Below are positions 301 through 20,924 of a DNA stretch of 64,000 bases, piece by piece; the first letter of the stretch is position 1, and every line of letters starts with the position of its first letter. Source of the stretch: Alphaproteobacteria bacterium (GTDB lineage Bacteria > Pseudomonadota > Alphaproteobacteria > SHNJ01); contig SHNJ01000030.1 of the NCBI GenBank assembly GCA_004295055.1, positions 1 through 64,000 of the forward strand. Reading direction: 5' to 3'. The translations under genes and the position numbers were made by a program. The notes under the pieces are model-generated. The model had not been told where the DNA came from, made no database searches, and saw only the letters and a list, made by a program, of their open reading frames with translations.

Positions 301-2538
301 ATGAATTCTACCCCTGAAACCACCGCCAATTGGAAAGTATTTGAATCCCAGCGCGTCAATCGCGAATTGGTGTCCAAGGCGTTTGAATACCATGTAAATC
401 AGAACTTTGTAGAGGCAGAAAAATTATACCGTCAGATATTAGAAGAATTTGCCGATGATCCGACATTGTTAAATCTGCTAGGTACGCTGTTATTGCAAAA
501 AGGCGAGTATGCAGAAGCGGAAACTTTGCTGGCTAAGGCCAATGAATTAAAACCCAATGATAACGAGATACTGAATAACCTTGGTGGCGTTTACCGCAAT
601 TTAGAAAAGTGGAAAGAAGCCGCGGAAGTTTTTGATCAATCACTGCTGCTGAATCGTTACAGCTGGCAAGTGCACGGCAATTTGGCAAAAACAAAATTTG
701 AATTGCAGGAATACGATTCCGCAATTGAGCATGCGCAGACTACATTGGAATTGAATCCGCAATTATATGAAATGCACAAAGTCCTGGCCGACTGTAATAT
801 GCGCCTGCGGAAATGGGAAGATGCGGAAAAATCTTACCGTATTTATCTGGAACATTTCCCCGACGATGGCGAAGCGACCAATAATCTTGCGTTTACTTTG
901 GAGCACTTGAAAAATTGGCAGGAAGCCTGCGACCTTTACAAAAAAGCCTATGATTTGCGTCAGGATTCATACGAAGTTGCCTTGAACTATGGCAATATCC
1001 TGATGTTTTTCAAGCGTTACTTCGATGCGTCCGAAGCATATCGGCATGCGCTGCAACTAAAGCCGCAGCATTTGCCCACGTATTTCCAATTGATCCAAAG
1101 CTTGATCTATCAGTTTCAGCTGGATCGCGCTTATTTCTATGTCAAGATGATGGAAACGGTTCCTGGATATGACAAGGCGCGCATGCGGTCTTTGTCGGAC
1201 CGGGTGATGGAATATGTGTTCGCATTTGAGGACGATCAGGAAGAAGTAGGATCGCAATTTAAAATTTTTGAAAGCGTTCCGCTTACCAATTATCCAAACA
1301 TGTTTATGAATTATTTCAAGTATGCGAAAGATGCGGAAAGCACTTTAAAACTGGCGAATCTTGTAAAGCTGCATGGCGATGCGCTGATTAACAGCACGCC
1401 CGATTTAGAAAAGAAGATTACTAAAACTTTACGGCCAACGCCCCGGAAATATCCGAAAATACGGCTTGGATTCCTATCTTCCGATTTGAAAAGCCATGTG
1501 GTAGCCAAATTCATTCTGCCATTGTTGACCAATTACAATAAAGACTTGATGGAGATACGCTGTTACAGTCCGCAAAAGCAGATCGAAGACGCCATACAAA
1601 AACAAATCCGCAATCTGGTGGATGAATTTCACTATGTCGAACACATGTATAATCATGAACTGGCTGATTTGATATTGAGCGATGATAACGACGTCTTGAT
1701 CGACTTGAACGGATTTACCGCCGATTCGCGCGTTATGTTGATGGCTAAACGTTTGGCTCCTGTGCAAATGGAGTGGGTTGGTTATCCATTTACTACCGGC
1801 ATATCTACTATCGATTATATGATTTTCGACCGGTTCAATAAGCCGGAAATTCCGGGATATGGCGCTGAAGATCCTTTGATTATGCCAAATTCATACGCGT
1901 GCTATGTCATGGGGCAGGAACCGGAATTCGATCCAACTCCGGCTTTCGAAACCAACGGCTATATTACTTTTGGCACCTTTAACAATCCCAATAAATATAC
2001 GCCGACGATTGTGAAATCCTGGGCGAAATGTTTGTTGGCCGTGCCGGATTCCAAATTTCTGATTATTCGCCCCGAAGCAGGATCGGATTTAATGAAAATA
2101 AACGTACGCAAGGAATTCGAAAAGCATGGCGTCGACCCGGAGAGGATTATTTTCTCCGGCAATCCGATGGGCAAACATTTGCATTTATACCGGTATTTGG
2201 ATGTTTCGCTGGATGTGTTTCCATTGACCGGAGGCACCACGACTTGCGAATCCATGAGCATGGGCGTACCGGTGGTCAGCCGGTATATGGAGGCGCATCA
2301 TAGCCGCTTGAGCCGCAGTTTCATTTCCAACGCTGGATTCCCGGATTTGTGCGCGGACAACGAAGATGGTTTTGTAAATATCGCCGCAAATTTGGCCAAT
2401 GACACGAAGTTGCTGCGATGGCTGCATGCCAATATGCGTCCTATCATGCATTCATCGCCGTTATGCGATGACAAGTTGTTTGCGTCCGATTTTGAAATAG
2501 CCATGCAAACTGTGGTGGAAAAACATGGGCTTCGCTGA
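301..2538 (+). CDS. TPR-containing GT41 (OGT/SPINDLY-like) glycosyltransferase 1
   Basis: This 745-residue protein has tetratricopeptide repeats over roughly residues 25-280 (for example LNLLGTLLLQKGEYAEAE) and a C-terminal GT41 catalytic region from about residue 385. GT41 enzymes such as eukaryotic OGT transfer a sugar, often GlcNAc from UDP-GlcNAc, to Ser or Thr. Family landmarks are present: SSDLKSHVVAKF with the conserved His near 399, APVQMEWVGYPFTTG, the FNNPNKY segment with Lys near 565 (matching the nucleotide-binding Lys of OGT), and LTGGTTTCESMSMGVPVVS. No strong Shine-Dalgarno precedes the ATG. The stop overlaps the next gene by 14 bases. The position opposite flagellin suggests it glycosylates flagellin in the cytoplasm before export. 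The donor sugar is unknown. Confidence 0.85.
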   Translation: MNSTPETTANWKVFESQRVNRELVSKAFEYHVNQNFVEAEKLYRQILEEFADDPTLLNLLGTLLLQKGEYAEAETLLAKANELKPNDNEILNNLGGVYRNLEKWKEAAEVFDQSLLLNRYSWQVHGNLAKTKFELQEYDSAIEHAQTTLELNPQLYEMHKVLADCNMRLRKWEDAEKSYRIYLEHFPDDGEATNNLAFTLEHLKNWQEACDLYKKAYDLRQDSYEVALNYGNILMFFKRYFDASEAYRHALQLKPQHLPTYFQLIQSLIYQFQLDRAYFYVKMMETVPGYDKARMRSLSDRVMEYVFAFEDDQEEVGSQFKIFESVPLTNYPNMFMNYFKYAKDAESTLKLANLVKLHGDALINSTPDLEKKITKTLRPTPRKYPKIRLGFLSSDLKSHVVAKFILPLLTNYNKDLMEIRCYSPQKQIEDAIQKQIRNLVDEFHYVEHMYNHELADLILSDDNDVLIDLNGFTADSRVMLMAKRLAPVQMEWVGYPFTTGISTIDYMIFDRFNKPEIPGYGAEDPLIMPNSYACYVMGQEPEFDPTPAFETNGYITFGTFNNPNKYTPTIVKSWAKCLLAVPDSKFLIIRPEAGSDLMKINVRKEFEKHGVDPERIIFSGNPMGKHLHLYRYLDVSLDVFPLTGGTTTCESMSMGVPVVSRYMEAHHSRLSRSFISNAGFPDLCADNEDGFVNIAANLANDTKLLRWLHANMRPIMHSSPLCDDKLFASDFEIAMQTVVEKHGLR

Positions 2539-14445: not shown

Positions 14446-14480
14446 TTTACTTCATTTCGATTTTGCGGCATGATTTGGCT

Positions 14481-15020
14481 ATGCGCCTAATCATTGCTAC
14501 TCTTTTATTGCTGGGATTTATGAATTGCGCCATTGCTCAGGATGGCGCGAAAACCAATATGCCTTATCCGCCGGAAGAAAAATCCGAGACAACGGAAATG
14601 GTGATTTTGGGTACCAATGGAAAACAGCATCGGTTTACAATCGAGATCGCGCGGACCGAAGCACAAAAAGCCAAAGGCTTGATGAATCGCACCGAACTTG
14701 GCGCGGATCAGGGCATGATATTCTTGTTCGATCCCCCGGTCGAAGTGGGTATGTGGATGAAGAATACATTGATTCCGTTGGATATGGTTTTTGTGAACGA
14801 TAAAAACCGTATTTTTCGCCTGCGCGAGGGCAAGCCGATGGACCTGACTATTTTGCGGTCTATGGGCAAAACAACAGCGGTTATTGAATTACCGGGTGGA
14901 ACGGTAAAAAAACAAAATATCCGTCTTGGTGACCGGATTTTAACGCCAGTATTGAAAAATCAGCCTTCTGCAGGGGGTTCTGGCGGCCAGGGCGGCGGAA
15001 TGAGCCCCTCGCATAATTAA
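14481..15020 (+). CDS. Exported DUF192-family protein
   Basis: This 179-residue protein starts with a signal peptide (MRLIIATLLLLGFMNCAIA) and then a DUF192 domain: ARTEAQKAKGLMNRTELG, MIFLFDPPVEVGMWMKNT, IPLDMVFVNDKNRIF and AVIELPGGTVKKQNIRLGD. These are the family's conserved blocks. DUF192 proteins are small periplasmic or extracellular proteins of unknown biochemical role, common in bacteria and archaea. The tail after about residue 158 is Gly/Ser-rich. The ATG at 14481 is preferred over the TTG at 14463 because it puts the signal peptide first, but no strong ribosome site is seen. Confidence 0.88.
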   Translation: MRLIIATLLLLGFMNCAIAQDGAKTNMPYPPEEKSETTEMVILGTNGKQHRFTIEIARTEAQKAKGLMNRTELGADQGMIFLFDPPVEVGMWMKNTLIPLDMVFVNDKNRIFRLREGKPMDLTILRSMGKTTAVIELPGGTVKKQNIRLGDRILTPVLKNQPSAGGSGGQGGGMSPSHN

Positions 15021-15099
15021 CTAGATTTGTTTTTAAAAACTTGCTACTAAGCTCTCTCTTTGAATGTTGGCGTAGACATAATGCGCCGTTCAATATTGT

Positions 15100-15175
<76 letters not shown>

Positions 15176-15176
<1 letters not shown>

Positions 15177-15281
15177 GCCTTCGCCCGTTATACTTAACAT
15201 AAGTCGAAGGCTGCCGCGCCGAAGTTCCAAAGGAACGTAGGTGGGCTGTTGCGATCGTTGGCTACGGCTTGGCAAGCCACC
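15176..15281 (+). repeat. tRNA-3'-adjacent palindromic element, copy 1
   Basis: The element starts on the last base of tRNA-Pro. It holds AGCCTTCG (15176-15183) paired with CGAAGGCT (15205-15212), then CCGAAG, a small hairpin GTTCC/GGAAC, then GTAGG.GG.CTG, and ends with GGCTTGGCAAGCCACC. A homologous element of nearly the same length lies 3' of tRNA-Asn (23339-23442), with the same block order and different bases in the hairpin arms. Confidence 0.65.
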
Positions 15282-15365
15282 TTCCTTCTTAAAATAAATT
15301 CTTATTATTCTTAATATTTTGATGAACTAAGCGTTTTATGCTATTACCGATGCTTAGGTGTTTCC

Positions 15366-15659
15366 ATGCAAGTCCGAATTTTAAAACCCGCTAAAACCGC
15401 TATGTCGTCTGGCACCCGTAAAACCAAAAAATGGGTGATTGAATTTCCGCCGCAAGATCGGCCGGATCCGAATGCATTGATGGGCTGGGCAGAATCGATC
15501 GATACGATCAAGCAAATGAAATTGCATTTTGACTCGCTGGACGAAGCACAGGCATATTGTAAGAAAAAAGGATGGGACTGCGCAGTAGTTGAACCGGAAC
15601 AACGCACGCAAAAATCCAAGTCCTACGCCGACAATTTCCGCTTCAATAAATTTAGTTAA
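15366..15659 (+). CDS. Complex I accessory subunit, NDUFS4 / ETC C1 family
   Basis: This 97-residue protein matches the alphaproteobacterial and mitochondrial NDUFS4-type subunit: VRILKPAKTAMSSGTRKTKK at the start, WVIEFPP, the DPNALMGWAESIDTIKQMKL core and AYCKKKGWDCAVVEP, ending with YADNFRFNKF. It binds near the NADH-dehydrogenase arm of complex I and helps its assembly and stability. Finding it in bacteria points to Alphaproteobacteria. It fits with the nuoJKLMN genes at 44641-50576. Its stop overlaps the convergent alkD stop by 8 bases. Confidence 0.92.
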   Translation: MQVRILKPAKTAMSSGTRKTKKWVIEFPPQDRPDPNALMGWAESIDTIKQMKLHFDSLDEAQAYCKKKGWDCAVVEPEQRTQKSKSYADNFRFNKFS

Positions 15660-16353
15660 TTTGTTTTATTTTCTTGCGCCATTCTGGTTTTAATTTGCGC
15701 GTTGCTTCATGCTTTGCCACGTATTTCAATTGCGTATTATAGGCATTTAGAAATTCAATCACGCGCGCAGAATTATGCGATCCCAAATCGCGCAGCCACC
15801 ATCCAATCGCTTTTTGAATGAACCATTCTTCGTCGTCTGCATATTGCCCGGCCCAGTCTAACATGCGTTCCGGATTTCGGCCCAATTTGGCATAGGGCAA
15901 GGTGTAAACCAATACCGCGCGACGCATCCAAAAATTGGGATGTTCGGTCCAGCCATTCAATTCATCCAATAATTTTTCATCGGCCAAAATACATTTCCAC
16001 GCGGCTGGCGCCATATTGTCCTGCAATGCCCAGCCATCGACATCTTTTAAAAATTGCTTGATGGTTTGCCATAATTTTTTGCTGGGTTTGACTTGCGGCA
16101 GGCACAAAATGCGCGTGGCAGCAATCATCGCGTCAAACTGATCGGTGGCCCATAAATCTTTTGCCAATGTCAGTAATTCTTCCTCGCTGCGTTTCTGGGC
16201 CGTATCTTTGACCACTTGTTTGGAAAAGGCAGCGCGAACACCCCAATGCGTACGCGAAGATTTGTGATAGGCCTTATCCCATTTTGCATGAGTGGCGTTT
16301 TTGTGTTTCTGTAATTGCCGCAAAAAAATGGGTGTTAATTTAGCGTTCGGCAT
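15652..16353 (-). CDS. DNA alkylation repair protein (AlkD-like HEAT-repeat glycosylase)
   Basis: The 233-residue protein is all-helical with HEAT-like repeats, matching AlkD. These enzymes remove N3- and N7-alkylated purines without flipping the base. Likely active-site positions are in DVDGWALQDNMAP (Trp and Asp), FWMRRAVLVYTLPY (the Arg that contacts DNA) and EEWFIQKAIGWWLRDLG (Trp). The start overlaps the stop of the upstream MFS gene by 14 bases, so the two are co-transcribed on the minus strand. Confidence 0.88.
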   Translation of the reverse strand: MPNAKLTPIFLRQLQKHKNATHAKWDKAYHKSSRTHWGVRAAFSKQVVKDTAQKRSEEELLTLAKDLWATDQFDAMIAATRILCLPQVKPSKKLWQTIKQFLKDVDGWALQDNMAPAAWKCILADEKLLDELNGWTEHPNFWMRRAVLVYTLPYAKLGRNPERMLDWAGQYADDEEWFIQKAIGWWLRDLGSHNSARVIEFLNAYNTQLKYVAKHEATRKLKPEWRKKIKQIN

Positions 16354-17569
16354 AATCTAAATCTTTATGAAAAGTATCGGATAGCAAATAGGCCGAAATA
16401 AAAGTAAGGGTAAATACGATGATTCCTAGTACCAGCATCGAATCCAAGATGCCAATTGATGGTTGTAAGTATGCGACAATTAAGCTCATCGGCACAAAAG
16501 TGGCTCTGGCGATATTAGGCGCGTTGGTTGCGGCGGTGGCGCGCAAATTAGTGCCGAACGATTCAGCGCTGATGGTCACAACAATTGTCCAACAGCCAAC
16601 ACTTAGACCCAGTAAGCAATAAAACATTTGAAACCAAATTTTGTCATGGTCGTAACCGGTCATCAAAAAATAACTGCTGGCGGCAAAACCAAATACCATA
16701 AAAGACAATAAGGCTGTGCGTCTGGATTGTAACCATTGGCTTAGCAATCCACCTGCAAAATCACCTAAGGTAAATCCGATGTAACCCCATAAAATCGCTT
16801 CTGCGGCAGTCATAACTGGTAAAAGGCCAAAAGATTTGGTTAGTTCTGGCGCGAAGCCTGCCAGCATATACATGACATAAGGCACTGGCATACCGATTAA
16901 AATGCAACCAACGAAACGTGCGGTGCGCCGCCAATTGCCGAAAAATATACGCAAGTTGCCGCGGCTTTTATCTTTGGGTTGTTGTAGAAAGATCATTGAA
17001 TCTTTCACCTGCATACGTAAGAATAACAGCGCAAAACCCATGATCGATCCGATCAAATAACATGTCCGCCAATCCAAAATTTGCGCCAACATTGCGGCCA
17101 TAACTGCGCCTGCAGGCGCAAAACCGGCAATTAATGTGGTGCCATAACCGCGTTTTTTCAGCGGCAATATTTCCGTGACTAAAGTAATAGCCAATCCCAA
17201 TTCGCCGGAAAGTCCAATTCCGGCAATAAAACGTAATAAGGCATAAGTTGATACTTGCTGTACAAAGGCACAGCCTAAAGTTGCCAGGGAATAAGTGAAA
17301 ATACTAAGGAACAACAATTTGGTGCGGCCGATTTTATCGCCCAAAATGCCGAACAAAACTCCGCCCACGAGCAAGCCGATCAATTGCAGATTGATAATCC
17401 AAATACCGGTATGGAATAAATCTGTTTCTGCTACCCCCAAATCGCGTAAACTAGGTAAACGGACGATGTTAAATAACAGCAAGTCATATACATCTACGAA
17501 ATAGCCTAAGGCCGATACAAAAACAGCCAGGCTGAAAATACCGGATTTTGTTGCAGAGGTTTTGCCCAT
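16340..17569 (-). CDS. MFS transporter, metabolite:H+ symporter-like
   Basis: This 409-residue protein has about twelve hydrophobic segments. The first, FVSALGYFVDVYDLLLF, has the charged pair seen in the metabolite:proton symporter and sugar/acid transporter branch of the major facilitator superfamily. The loop motif FGILGDKIGRTKLLFLS between segments 2 and 3 is the MFS signature. The substrate cannot be told from sequence; a carboxylate or sugar is most usual in this branch. It is co-transcribed with alkD downstream. tRNA-Arg ends 25 bases upstream of the start on the same strand, so some read-through from the tRNA promoter is possible. Confidence 0.88.
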   Translation of the reverse strand: MGKTSATKSGIFSLAVFVSALGYFVDVYDLLLFNIVRLPSLRDLGVAETDLFHTGIWIINLQLIGLLVGGVLFGILGDKIGRTKLLFLSIFTYSLATLGCAFVQQVSTYALLRFIAGIGLSGELGLAITLVTEILPLKKRGYGTTLIAGFAPAGAVMAAMLAQILDWRTCYLIGSIMGFALLFLRMQVKDSMIFLQQPKDKSRGNLRIFFGNWRRTARFVGCILIGMPVPYVMYMLAGFAPELTKSFGLLPVMTAAEAILWGYIGFTLGDFAGGLLSQWLQSRRTALLSFMVFGFAASSYFLMTGYDHDKIWFQMFYCLLGLSVGCWTIVVTISAESFGTNLRATAATNAPNIARATFVPMSLIVAYLQPSIGILDSMLVLGIIVFTLTFISAYLLSDTFHKDLDYAER

Positions 17570-17593
17570 AATGATGTTCTCGCGGCAAGAAAA

Positions 17594-17670
17594 TGGCGTC
17601 CCCGATACGATTCGAACGTACGACCTAATGCTTAGAAGGCATTTGCTCTATCCAGCTGAGCTACGGGGAC
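17594..17670 (-). tRNA. tRNA-Arg (anticodon TCT)
   Basis: The minus strand folds as a cloverleaf with acceptor GTCCCCG/CGGGGAC, anticodon stem AATGC/GCATT with loop CTTCTAA (anticodon TCT), a GTTCGAATC T-loop, and encoded CCA at 17594-17596. It is 77 bases long. Confidence 0.97.
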
Positions 17671-17736
17671 GTGAATTGGTAATATACATGGTCTGGCACG
17701 CAGCTGTATAGGGATTATTGCAAAGAATTAAGGATT

Positions 17737-18369
17737 TTATCCCTCGCTACATCCCACCACACGATAGATATTTTTAACCTCGGTTAGGGCGATTTCCAGA
17801 TCCTTGGCGGGATTATATTGGCGCAAGATTACTTTGCTTTGGGTTTGTTTGATCAATTCTTTGACAAAGGCGCTGCCATCCAGCAGTTCAATCAATACAA
17901 AGCACCCGGCATCGACGGGTTTGGCGGGGTTGATATAAATAATTTCCCCCAACCGAAACCGTGGCTCCATGGATTTACCGGCAACCCACACGGCGAACGC
18001 GCTGTTATTGCCGGCAAGATTCGGCGGCCGGTCAATAAAAGAAACCGGCGTTTCGGTGATGACAAGGGTGCTATGTTTTCCCGCCTGTGCCATACCCAAA
18101 ACCGGCAAGTCTTTGTGTGCTTTCGCGGTAGGGGGAGGGGCAAAGCTGGGTCCAATGGATTTAGCCGAAGTGCCGCCGAACATAATCCATTCGGGTGTGA
18201 CGCCCAATATTCGTCCCAAGGTTTCCACGGTCCTGGCATCGGGTTCGCTGCGGTTGTTTTCCCAGTACGCCACCGTGGATTGATTGATATCAAGCGCATT
18301 GGCCAGCGCCGCTTGGGTTAAGCCTTTGTTGGTACGGGTTCGTTTAATCCGGTCGGCGATCGTTACCAT
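17737..18369 (-). CDS. XRE-family repressor with S24 (LexA/CI-type) peptidase domain
   Basis: The 210-residue protein has an N-terminal helix-turn-helix of the XRE/Cro type (LTQAALANALDINQSTVAYW, residues 17-36) and a C-terminal S24 signal-peptidase-like fold. The catalytic serine is in VAGKSMEPRFRLGE and the lysine in GSAFVKELI. Phage CI-like repressors and LexA self-cleave at such a dyad when RecA is activated. A probable cleavage pair (AG or GM) lies in LGMAQAGKHS, at the junction of the domains. It diverges from a small gene for an S24-like fold protein, with an operator-like palindrome between them. No phage structural genes are nearby. Confidence 0.9.
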   Translation of the reverse strand: MVTIADRIKRTRTNKGLTQAALANALDINQSTVAYWENNRSEPDARTVETLGRILGVTPEWIMFGGTSAKSIGPSFAPPPTAKAHKDLPVLGMAQAGKHSTLVITETPVSFIDRPPNLAGNNSAFAVWVAGKSMEPRFRLGEIIYINPAKPVDAGCFVLIELLDGSAFVKELIKQTQSKVILRQYNPAKDLEIALTEVKNIYRVVGCSEG

Positions 18370-18404
18370 ATCTTATTTCCTGCAATCGTTTCTAATGTAA
18401 AATA

Positions 18405-18437
18405 GTCATTGACATTATGACAATTTATCATTAATAC
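18405..18437. promoter_or_regulatory. Divergent promoter/operator region of the S24 repressor pair
   Basis: GTCAT (18405-18409) and ATGAC (18417-18421) form an inverted repeat centred on the -35 TTGACA (18410-18415) of a plus-strand promoter whose weak -10 is TAATAC (18432-18437). On the minus strand, TTGTCA with a 17-base spacer leads toward the repressor gene. A repressor bound here could block both genes. This reading is inferred from layout. Confidence 0.45.
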
Positions 18438-18490
18438 TAAGTTTAGTCAATCAACTTATGGTTGTTATTAATGATAATTGGGGGAAGGCC

Positions 18491-18826
18491 ATGCAGAATG
18501 CATACAAGGATATTGCCGATGTTCATTTCCAACCGGTTGGGCTGTATTATTTGCCGGTGACCAATAATCGTTTGGCGCCAAAATATTGTTTGGGAGAATT
18601 GATTATCGCCGATCCGCAAAAGCCAATACAATCAAGCGATTATGTAGTTTTCTGGATTAACGCCAAACATTATGTGATTGCCAAAGCGAATGATAATTGG
18701 GCGGAACCGAAATCAAAATGGGTATTTTGGAAAAAGAGTGGAGCTTCGAAAAAACCTTATCTCGCGGCGCACAAGATTGTGGGATGCATTGAAATCACAC
18801 CGAATAATTATCGTTTTAGCGATTGA
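18491..18826 (+). CDS. Stand-alone S24/LexA-like domain protein lacking the catalytic serine
   Basis: The 111-residue protein has no helix-turn-helix. Its body aligns by eye with the C-terminal domain of the divergent repressor: VTNNRLAPKYCLGELIIADP against VAGKSMEPRFRLGEIIYINP, and AHKIVGCIEI against IYRVVGC. The serine position is Arg, while a lysine survives in YVIAKAN. It is therefore a probable non-cleaving S24-type fold. The ATG at 18491 is chosen because a G-rich ribosome site (GGGGGAAGG) precedes it; an in-frame ATG at 18458 has none. It could pair with the repressor and change its activity, but this is inference. Confidence 0.65.
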   Translation: MQNAYKDIADVHFQPVGLYYLPVTNNRLAPKYCLGELIIADPQKPIQSSDYVVFWINAKHYVIAKANDNWAEPKSKWVFWKKSGASKKPYLAAHKIVGCIEITPNNYRFSD

Positions 18827-18942
18827 ATACAACCGCGTGGCATGGAATTAAGAATTGCGCGGCTTTCGTTAACGATCTATTAACCACCTAACACTACTAT
18901 CGGTTGCATTAAATAATCACATGTTTTTAGGAGAGTAGATTT

Positions 18943-19323
18943 ATGAATACCAAAGCTGCCGTTATTGTATCCGATAGTCATAATCATTACGGACGATTGA
19001 TTAAGCGCACCCAATCCGCCACAATATTCTGGCGGGAAAAACTGATGGAGGTCGTTGGCAATTACCGTGTTTGGAAAAAAACCGTTGCACAGATCGAGGA
19101 CGTAAACCCTGAGTATTGTTTGTTACAGACACGCCGGGTAAAACGTTTGGTGGCGCAAGCTTATGTGGAATATCGCCGCAAGCAATCGGAATTGAATTTG
19201 TTGATTGAATTAAGCCAGCAGGCAAAAGCCAGTATCGATATCATGGAAACCAATTTATCTTTGCGTTTACGCAAATACGAAACCCAACCGCTGCATGAAA
19301 TAGCGCCATCGAACGCCGCGTAA
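18943..19323 (+). CDS. Unrecognised small helical protein (126 residues)
   Basis: I do not recognise the family. The protein is charged and predicted mostly helical from composition, with a coiled-coil-like central part (YVEYRRKQSELNLLIELSQQ) and a basic cluster TRRVKRL. There is no signal peptide or membrane segment. A good ribosome site (AGGAG) lies 8 bases before the ATG, and a strong terminator follows 33 bases after the stop, so it is probably a real single-gene unit. Its neighbours (S24 pair upstream, candidate sRNA downstream) suggest an accessory region but do not indicate a role. Confidence 0.7.
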   Translation: MNTKAAVIVSDSHNHYGRLIKRTQSATIFWREKLMEVVGNYRVWKKTVAQIEDVNPEYCLLQTRRVKRLVAQAYVEYRRKQSELNLLIELSQQAKASIDIMETNLSLRLRKYETQPLHEIAPSNAA

Positions 19324-19356
19324 TTTTCTAATCCTACGACTGCTCAATTGGATACT

Positions 19357-19400
19357 CCTGCAACATGCCGCCAATTTTAGCGGCATTGCAGGATTTTTTT
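19357..19400 (+). terminator. Rho-independent terminator after the 126-residue gene
   Basis: ATGCCGC (19365-19371) pairs with GCGGCAT (19380-19386), and the stem is extended by CCTGC/GCAGG with small bulges. A run of eight T follows from 19394. Confidence 0.85.
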
Positions 19401-19444
19401 TACCCGCAGTAGAAGGTATAAAACACAAAATATTTTTTTGGGGC

Positions 19445-19556
19445 AAAAAAATAGCCGGCTCTTTCGAGTCGGCTGTATTAGTTACAGGAGGGTACGAGAT
19501 GAACAGCTCGTCATAGAAAACGAGCTCATCGAACTTCTTTATGCTCCTCCTCCTAC
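19445..19556 (-). ncRNA. Candidate small RNA with terminator and CCCTCCT region
   Basis: On the minus strand TTGTTT (19591-19586) and TATTGC (19568-19563) are spaced by 17 bases, which would start a transcript near 19556. The RNA would begin with GTAGGAGGAGGAG, form a hairpin AGCTCGT/ACGAGCT, contain a single-stranded ACCCTCCTGTAAC able to pair with its own 5' end or with ribosome sites, and finish with a stem AGCCGACTC/GAGCCGGCT followed by seven T. There is no convincing ORF. The hairpins are clear, but the promoter is weak and the orientation is inferred from the T-run. Confidence 0.45.
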
Positions 19557-19584
19557 TAAAAAGCAATAGATATTGAGAAGGTTT

Positions 19585-19608
19585 AAAACAATTTTTTTTA
19601 GGTATAAT
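19585..19608 (+). promoter_or_regulatory. Promoter of the 60-residue ORF
   Basis: A perfect TATAAT lies at 19603-19608, with GGTTTA or GTTTAA 16-17 bases upstream as a weak -35. The start codon at 19628 is only about 13 bases beyond the expected transcription start, with AAAAGGAG between. Confidence 0.5.
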
Positions 19609-19627
19609 ATGTCTTTTAAAAGGAGCG

Positions 19628-19810
19628 ATGAAACAATATAAGCCACTGAATCACAATGTAATTATTTTAAAACATCCGTCTCGTGCAAATAAACGACCTG
19701 TGGACAGTCTTTGTTCTGTAACAATAAAAACTGAAGATGATTTAAATAGCAATTTATCCGAAACAAAATTACTTATAAACGTGAAAAACCTGCGCTCAAA
19801 TCTTCAATAA
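19628..19810 (+). CDS. Possible small protein of 60 residues overlapping the metC 3' end
   Basis: A consensus TATAAT and an AAAAGGAG site lead directly into this ATG, which is unusual for a chance ORF. The product is polar with a basic N-terminus (MKQYKPLNHNVIILKHPSRA), no membrane segment, and no family I know. Its last 38 bases overlap the 3' end of metC on the other strand. The spacing from AAAAGGAG to ATG is short (about 2 bases), so translation may be weak. It could also be just the 5' part of an antisense transcript. Confidence 0.45.
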   Translation: MKQYKPLNHNVIILKHPSRANKRPVDSLCSVTIKTEDDLNSNLSETKLLINVKNLRSNLQ

Positions 19811-20924
19811 GGTCTTTTACGTTTTCCAAACCGATGCTTAATCGAATTATTCTCCCTTTTGGAATCGAACTGAAGGAGCGGGTAGGATTTTGGGGAACAA
19901 TCAGGCTTTCAAATCCGCCCCAACTGAACCCCAGGCCAAATAATTTCATTCCGTCGACAAAACGCGCTGCCGCGGCGTCATCATATTTTGGATTTAATAC
20001 AAAACTGAATACTCCATTGCCGCCGGAAAAATCGCGCGCAAAAATTTCCTTGCCTGGGGCGTCGAATTCCGGGTGAAGAACCGCAACAATTTCCGCGCGA
20101 TTTTTTAAATACCCGGCAATTTCACGCGCGGATTTTTCACATTGATCCATGCGCACTTGCATGGTGCGCAAACCGCGTAAAGCCAGGTAAGCCTCGTCGG
20201 CAGAAACGCAATATCCCAACACTACAGCTTGGCGCGCGACTTTATCGATCAAGGGTTGTTGGCCACTAACGACACCCATCATTACATCGCTGTGTCCGGA
20301 AATATGTTTGGTTGCGGATTGAATCACAAGATCGACACCTAATTGCAACGGGCGGAATCGCAAGGGCGTGCCCCAGGTATTGTCGATGATTGTTGTAATG
20401 TTATGGTTGCGCGCCACCTTGACAATGGCAGGGATGTCTTGGAATTCCATGGTGCTGCTAGCGGGACTTTCCATGTATATCGCACGCGTATTGGGGCGAA
20501 TTTTTTTTTCTATTCCAGCGCCGATCAGTGGGTCGTAATATTCTGTATCTACTTGCATCGGGCGCAATATTTCTTCCGCGGCGCGCTTGCTGTTTGGATA
20601 ATCGCCTTCGGTCATTAACATGTGATCGCCGGGTTTCAGTATCGTTAACATCGCGCCAACAGCCGCTGCAACACCGCTTGGATAAATCACGGCGCGATCA
20701 CACCCTTCCATAGTGGCAAGCGCTTCGGTCAAAGAGTGCGTGGTCGAAGTGCCATAGCGGCCGTAATATAAATCTTTGCCGTCATAACGGCCTTCTTCCA
20801 AACTATACATATGCGCGACTGAATCGAACAATATGGTCGCCGCGCGGGTTACCGGCGGATTGATAAAATGTTCTTTGCCTCGGCCGGCATGGGTCAGTCT
20901 GGTTTCAATTTTTTTGGTTTTCAT
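19773..20924 (-). CDS. metC: Cystathionine beta-lyase (PLP-dependent Cys/Met metabolism enzyme)
   Basis: The 383-residue protein has the Cys/Met-metabolism PLP fold: YGRYGTSTTHSLTEALATMEG near the N-terminus, YPSGVAAAVGAML, IDNTWGTP with the cofactor-binding Asp, and the PLP lysine in VIQSATKHISGHSDVMMG near residue 208. Cystathionine beta-lyase splits cystathionine to homocysteine in methionine synthesis, and this alphaproteobacterial subgroup is usually annotated so. A gamma-lyase or sulfhydrylase role cannot be excluded by eye. It lies 12 bases after sseA, in a minus-strand operon nudF-sseA-metC. Confidence 0.88.
   Translation of the reverse strand: MKTKKIETRLTHAGRGKEHFINPPVTRAATILFDSVAHMYSLEEGRYDGKDLYYGRYGTSTTHSLTEALATMEGCDRAVIYPSGVAAAVGAMLTILKPGDHMLMTEGDYPNSKRAAEEILRPMQVDTEYYDPLIGAGIEKKIRPNTRAIYMESPASSTMEFQDIPAIVKVARNHNITTIIDNTWGTPLRFRPLQLGVDLVIQSATKHISGHSDVMMGVVSGQQPLIDKVARQAVVLGYCVSADEAYLALRGLRTMQVRMDQCEKSAREIAGYLKNRAEIVAVLHPEFDAPGKEIFARDFSGGNGVFSFVLNPKYDDAAAARFVDGMKLFGLGFSWGGFESLIVPQNPTRSFSSIPKGRIIRLSIGLENVKDLIEDLSAGFSRL

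Follow-up and report, generated by a model that had tools for sequence, protein, structure and literature searches.

An S24-like protein without the catalytic serine faces an S24 repressor in an alphaproteobacterial genome and may antagonise it

Introduction

Why would a repressor of the self-cleaving S24 type be faced, across a shared promoter, by a small gene whose product resembles the C-terminal domain of such repressors? The question is raised by positions 17737-18826 of the window, a 64,000-nucleotide stretch from an Alphaproteobacteria bacterium (positions 1 to 64,000 of contig SHNJ01000030.1, assembly GCA_004295055.1), where a gene for a helix-turn-helix (HTH) and S24 repressor diverges from a gene for a stand-alone S24-like protein with an arginine in place of the catalytic serine. 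A preliminary description of the locus had suggested that such a partner could alter dimerisation or cleavage of the repressor. The reading we favour, to which we give a probability of roughly 0.4, is an autoregulated switch whose small product would antagonise the repressor through the S24 dimer interface.

Results

Sequence and fold of the facing protein

The small gene and the parts of its product discussed below are as follows.

18458..18826, plus strand: stand-alone S24-like small protein, 122 amino acids (aa), or 111 aa if the start is 18491 (profile, codon usage, model)
18545..18682, plus strand: residues 30-75 of the small protein, its S24-like core (20.9 bits with the profile of relatives' S24 domains)
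18569..18571, plus strand: codon of small-protein Arg38, at the catalytic serine position (profile and A1 alignments)
18480..18493, plus strand: GGGGGAAGG followed by ATG, the likely true start of the small protein (read from the sequence)

Inspection of the small protein reveals an S24-like core and no HTH, both as the preliminary description had stated. Searches at E<=1 returned no HTH family in Pfam, NCBIfam or PHROGs and no match of any kind in the latter two, and the Pfam Peptidase_S24 family matched at E=0.0027 with 17.8 bits, under its curated cut-off of 23.3 bits. A profile built from the S24 domains of 35 relatives, with the window's own repressor left out, gives the protein its 20.9 bits, where 5000 shuffles reach a maximum of 8.3. 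The relatives come from 36 collected repressor loci, of which 30 (the window's own included) were returned by one search and five of six by two others, with the same-contig locus L004 added; L038 was left out of the profile, having matched in its HTH part only. On this profile evidence the core reads as a distant S24 domain.

The active site was compared in alignment A1, which also served for the fold and holds 29 S24 rows, near-duplicates among the 36 repressors having been left out. The serine column contains Ser in 27 rows and Ala in one, and the small protein has Arg there, so that the arginine reported earlier stands, as does the retained LGE motif. The lysine column contains Lys in 26 rows, Ala in two and Arg in one, and the small protein contributes Ala75 there in both alignments; loss of the lysine nevertheless appears less certain than loss of the serine, because Lys76 adjoins the column and a one-residue shift could restore it. 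The Ala-Gly cleavage region is absent, and similarity is low outside residues 30-75. The C-terminal strand is retained and carries a 'VGC' common to the small protein and its partner repressor, the cysteine occurring in these two of the 29 rows only, which is a weak point. Counted by identities, the small protein is nearer to two repressors of other families (16/35 for L053 and 15/35 for L051) than to its own partner (10/31). A recent duplication of the partner's C-terminal domain is disfavoured, because L053 and L051 score above the partner.

For the repressor gene and the small gene alike, codon usage points to the annotated frame rather than to any of the other five. The small protein may more likely begin at Met12 (18491) than at 18458, since no Shine-Dalgarno sequence precedes 18458 and a ribosome-binding site, read by eye, precedes Met12.

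A structural model whose alignment was seeded with A1 has a mean predicted local distance difference test (pLDDT) score of 73, with about 86-93 over residues 31-80 and 92, 82 and 72 in the last three blocks; its confident part comprises residues 31-80 and 101-122. VIA-align places UmuD' at the top and as the best solved-structure neighbour (Z 7.4, root-mean-square deviation (rmsd) 5.2, 85 aligned), with the lambda repressor C-terminal domain (Z 7.1, rmsd 3.7, 80 aligned) and type I signal peptidase (Z 6.9, rmsd 3.1, 84 aligned) near it. All neighbours down to rank 32 are, by their descriptions, S24-type repressors, UmuD, LexA, the phage 186 repressor or of signal-peptidase type. Foldseek returned nothing at E<=0.001 for this model.

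The repressor

17737..18369, minus strand: HTH and S24 repressor, 210 aa (Pfam, phrog_4, residue check)
18184..18348, minus strand: repressor HTH domain, residues 8-62 (Pfam HTH_3)
17788..18105, minus strand: repressor S24 domain (Pfam Peptidase_S24)
17971..17973, minus strand: codon of the repressor's catalytic Ser133 (Ser in 27/29 rows of alignment A1)

The facing repressor passes the Pfam cut-offs for HTH_3 (E=3.4e-13) and Peptidase_S24 (E=1.5e-12) and matches phrog_4, a phage transcriptional repressor family, at 4.4e-41. Its Ala96-Gly97 cleavage site, Ser133 and Lys170 are all intact at the usual spacing, with 36 residues from the glycine to the serine, which agrees with the earlier account of an intact HTH, serine and lysine. 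The genome also encodes RecA, and self-cleavage of the repressor should be expected from the Ala-Gly, Ser and Lys residues.

Two other loci of the same genome hold related genes. L004 (1438-2055, minus strand; C30:107201-107794, on the same contig) encodes a relative of the window repressor with 36% identity and faces a protein of 213 aa that matches HTH_3 weakly, which is the same switch layout with another partner. L006 (1120-1863, plus strand, C34) encodes an HTH protein of 247 aa whose S24 match is weak (E 0.072) and which, as read from the sequence, has Arg at the serine position; it is probably a second repressor-like protein unable to self-cleave.

Operator-like sites between the two genes

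The 121 bases between the repressor gene and the likely start of the small gene (18370-18490) contain 29% G+C and the following features.

18409..18438, plus strand: sigma70-like promoter of the small gene, TTGACA-18-AATACT (or TTGACA-17-TAATAC), 10/12 consensus
18394..18423, minus strand: sigma70-like promoter of the repressor gene, TTGTCA-18-TACATT, 9/12 consensus
18409..18423, no strand assigned: operator-like site O1, TTGACATTATGACAA, a near-palindrome of 15 base pairs (bp) that overlaps the -35 boxes of both promoters
18425..18440, no strand assigned: operator-like site O2, TTATCATTAATACTAA, overlapping the -10 box of the small-gene promoter
18462..18477, no strand assigned: operator-like site O3, TTGTTATTAATGATAA, 3' of the predicted transcription start

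The preliminary description had already reported an operator-like inverted repeat over the shared promoter, and the candidates O1, O2 and O3 can be read there. The repeat originally placed at 18405-18421 exists (GTCAT-N7-ATGAC), but it describes the region less well than the near-palindrome of O1 together with a perfect 12-bp inverted repeat, 18425-18436/18466-18477, which was matched by none of 1000 dinucleotide shuffles. Half-sites resembling TTRTCAT (at most one mismatch) number six against a shuffle mean of 2.15, a count reached by 18 of 1000 shuffles for a half-site drawn from the tested region itself.

Nowhere else in the genome does the O2/O3 pattern or the O1 pattern occur at one mismatch or fewer, a rarity that for O2/O3 is partly circular given that the pattern was derived from the sites themselves. 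Two mismatches yield 27 O2/O3 sites, 25 of them beyond the locus, against eight for a reversed-pattern control; among 15 of the 25 that were inspected, 13 lie within an open reading frame (ORF) of at least 100 codons and two outside. A genome-wide regulon was rejected on this inspection of 15 of the 25 sites. One palindrome two mismatches from O2/O3 (L087, C7:106679-106694) lies outside ORFs and upstream of an ORF, which we take to resemble flagellar FlgB.

Occurrence of the pair

Searches of 58 other relatives, of plasmids, and of viral and species-genome collections (the last two with short conserved peptides) did not recover the small protein, and a phage search returned just one cI at E=0.1. 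Within the class, 384 other genomes gave no match at E<=0.001, weaker matches centring on the cores of S24 repressors, and within the phylum 397 other genomes gave none at that threshold; the genome samples overlap one another. None of the 35 other related-repressor loci has an S24-like ORF facing the repressor, and strong S24 matches in 115 genomes, inspected by eye, include no second S24 within a few kilobases among the matches listed. The co-occurrence test, whose failure the preliminary description had named as refuting its proposal, was thus negative at these 35 loci and in both sets of genomes, in a comparison that is weak in that the family has a single further genome among the relatives, G001, and that genome is 57% complete. 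Because it was found nowhere else searched, the pair is an orphan and probably a lineage-specific module.

What occupies the facing position elsewhere was surveyed in ten ORFs picked by eye. Three exceed the Pfam HTH cut-off (L043, L063, L036), one matches DUF6362 (L049), four have weak matches, two have none, and no S24 domain was seen. In the same-family genome G001, the protein facing L061 (73 aa) matches a phage repressor family at 1.8e-5. Based on this survey and the L061 match, the facing slot in this repressor family appears variable and often regulatory, and holds an S24-like protein here. L061 itself (963-1625, plus strand) is an HTH-S24 repressor in which Ser is replaced by Ala and Lys by Arg. 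Related repressors on two viral contigs and in one Pseudochrobactrum genome (L037, L040, L041) face similar proteins of 64-68 aa, and the one facing L041 has no Pfam or PHROG match.

Genomic context

18943..19323, plus strand: downstream gene (126 aa) that may be cotranscribed with the small gene (paralogs in the own genome and in G001)

Copies of this downstream family (L083, 1396-1776, minus strand; L081, 1132-1644, plus strand) occur in the own genome (C31) and in G001, each facing an XRE-type HTH gene. No Pfam family passed its cut-off in the two members searched, and the family may supply partners to switches of this kind. Among the eight proteins at 14463-20924, Pfam detected no umuC-like gene adjoining the small gene.

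The locus had been placed outside any obvious prophage, and the checked parts bear this out. The 25-bp 3' part of the adjacent tRNA-Arg occurs once in the window at up to three mismatches, with no att-like repeat, and a 201-bp piece around this tRNA matches only tRNA-sized places elsewhere in the genome. A prophage or tRNA-inserted island was rejected for the immediate region, as distinct from the whole contig, given that the tRNA-Arg has no att-like repeat.

Discussion

We infer every binding and regulatory step of the favoured switch from the arrangement described above. The repressor would bind the three putative operators, repressing the small gene and also, by way of O1, its own gene in part, a proposal made because the sites cover the -35 and -10 boxes. 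DNA damage would then remove the repressor by RecA-stimulated self-cleavage, which we propose because the Ala-Gly, Ser and Lys residues are intact and a RecA gene is present. With the repressor gone, the small protein would be made, and its S24 core would bind intact repressor monomers at their C-terminal domain to give heterodimers unable to grip a palindromic operator. The switch would thereby be kept open after cleavage, which is the role of a Cro-like protein in phage switches.

In its most specific form, this proposal makes the small protein a decoy subunit, that is to say, a dead, HTH-less copy of the repressor's dimerisation fold under the repressor's own control, such that dominant-negative domain mimicry replaces the usual HTH antagonist. 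We advance this form tentatively, as doubtful rather than probable. Dimerisation of UmuDAb, an S24 repressor, is described as needing the last ~12 residues and Gly124 (PMC11332147; this and the other papers cited are represented by excerpts), and we prefer the decoy form because the C-terminal domain is needed for S24 dimerisation and the small protein keeps the C-terminal strand.

Several results weigh against an antagonist acting through the dimer interface. The repressor and small protein co-occur nowhere that was searched, and the small protein is closer to the other-family repressors L053 and L051 than to its own partner. The fold model is not independent of homology, its alignment having been seeded with S24 domains, and the VIA-align Z values are all under 8, a range in which the resemblance may reflect a common arrangement. 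The structure prediction called for in the preliminary description came out in part, giving an S24/LexA-type core when seeded and, when modelled unseeded from the single sequence, an uninformative structure (pLDDT 39) with meaningless PDB matches.

The orphan status among the searched genomes would also suit a decaying remnant, with the small gene descended from an HTH-S24 repressor gene, stripped of its HTH and active site, and transcribed to no function. The lost serine, the missing cleavage loop and the low similarity outside residues 30-75 fit such a history, and serine-less HTH-S24 relatives are not uncommon nearby (L006 in the own genome, with Arg; L061 in G001, with Ala). We nevertheless consider a remnant unlikely, given an open reading frame with genome-like codon usage and a promoter of 10/12 consensus, a ribosome-binding site and operator-like sites laid over that promoter.

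The same layout with the opposite sign would describe a corepressor or stabiliser like DdrR, in which the small protein, once bound, makes the repressor dimerise or hold its operators more strongly, or else protects it from cleavage, in negative feedback. Gene order and shared promoter are as in Acinetobacter UmuDAb/ddrR; DdrR, however, is described as unique to Acinetobacter and, in the excerpt, not as an S24 domain (PMC7273328), and for an HTH-less S24-like partner, competition at the dimer interface would be the simpler action, which makes a corepressor rather unlikely. Least probable, in our estimate, is that the repressor is just the switch of an effector with a target of its own, as UmuD' acts on polymerase. 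UmuD' is the best solved-structure neighbour (Z 7.4, rmsd 5.2, 85 aligned), and the S24 repressor IrvR controls the adjacent irvA, which acts on other pathways (PMC7101444). Against this stand the lack of a umuC-like neighbour among the eight proteins at 14463-20924 and the tendency of the facing slot in relatives to hold regulators.

Antagonism through the dimer interface can also be set beside known switches. A divergent layout is found in CI/Mor and CI/Cro switches, and the latter likewise combine a repressor with a second small regulator, Cro being an HTH protein, unlike the HTH-less protein of the window. UmuD' and HumD, like the small protein, are S24 domains without an HTH or cleavable arm; UmuD' keeps its Ser and Lys and works with UmuC, whereas the small protein has lost the serine and umuC is not adjacent. 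In Acinetobacter (PMC7273328, PMC11332147, PMC4807011), UmuDAb is a chromosomal S24 repressor with self-cleavage residues that represses itself and a divergent small gene via a shared promoter, a layout repeated in the window with regulation that we propose to be similar, and DdrR is the partner of UmuDAb as the small protein is its proposed counterpart here. The systems differ in that DdrR is described as Acinetobacter-specific and, in those excerpts, not as S24, and in that the UmuDAb regulon is wide, whereas the window's sites have no copy at one mismatch or fewer elsewhere in the genome. Like GfoA and GftA of Gifsy and Tum of phage 186 (PMC3121763), the small protein is proposed to bind a repressor and remove it from DNA; its gene differs in facing a repressor that keeps its cleavage residues. 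The CI/Mor systems of TP901-1 and phi13 (PMC11149083) also join a repressor to a second small regulator, but Mor binds the N-terminal domain of CI, whereas the facing protein of the window resembles a C-terminal domain. IrvR of Streptococcus mutans (PMC7101444) is an S24 repressor with an adjacent gene as its main target; it forms dimers through its N-terminal half, and the excerpt does not describe irvA as S24. In arrangement the locus follows UmuDAb/ddrR, and in its proposed action it follows small antirepressors; its unusual element is the dead S24 domain in the facing position. In a literature search that mostly lacked subscription journals, no case turned up of such an isolated domain opposite an S24 repressor.

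Were the small gene a remnant, it would be a curiosity of one lineage. If instead the small protein pairs with the repressor, the locus would be a very short natural case of control by a mimic of a dimerisation domain in the LexA/CI superfamily, and it would offer a route by which a self-cleaving repressor, once released, is held off its operators. Other catalytically dead S24 domains would then be worth seeking as regulators.
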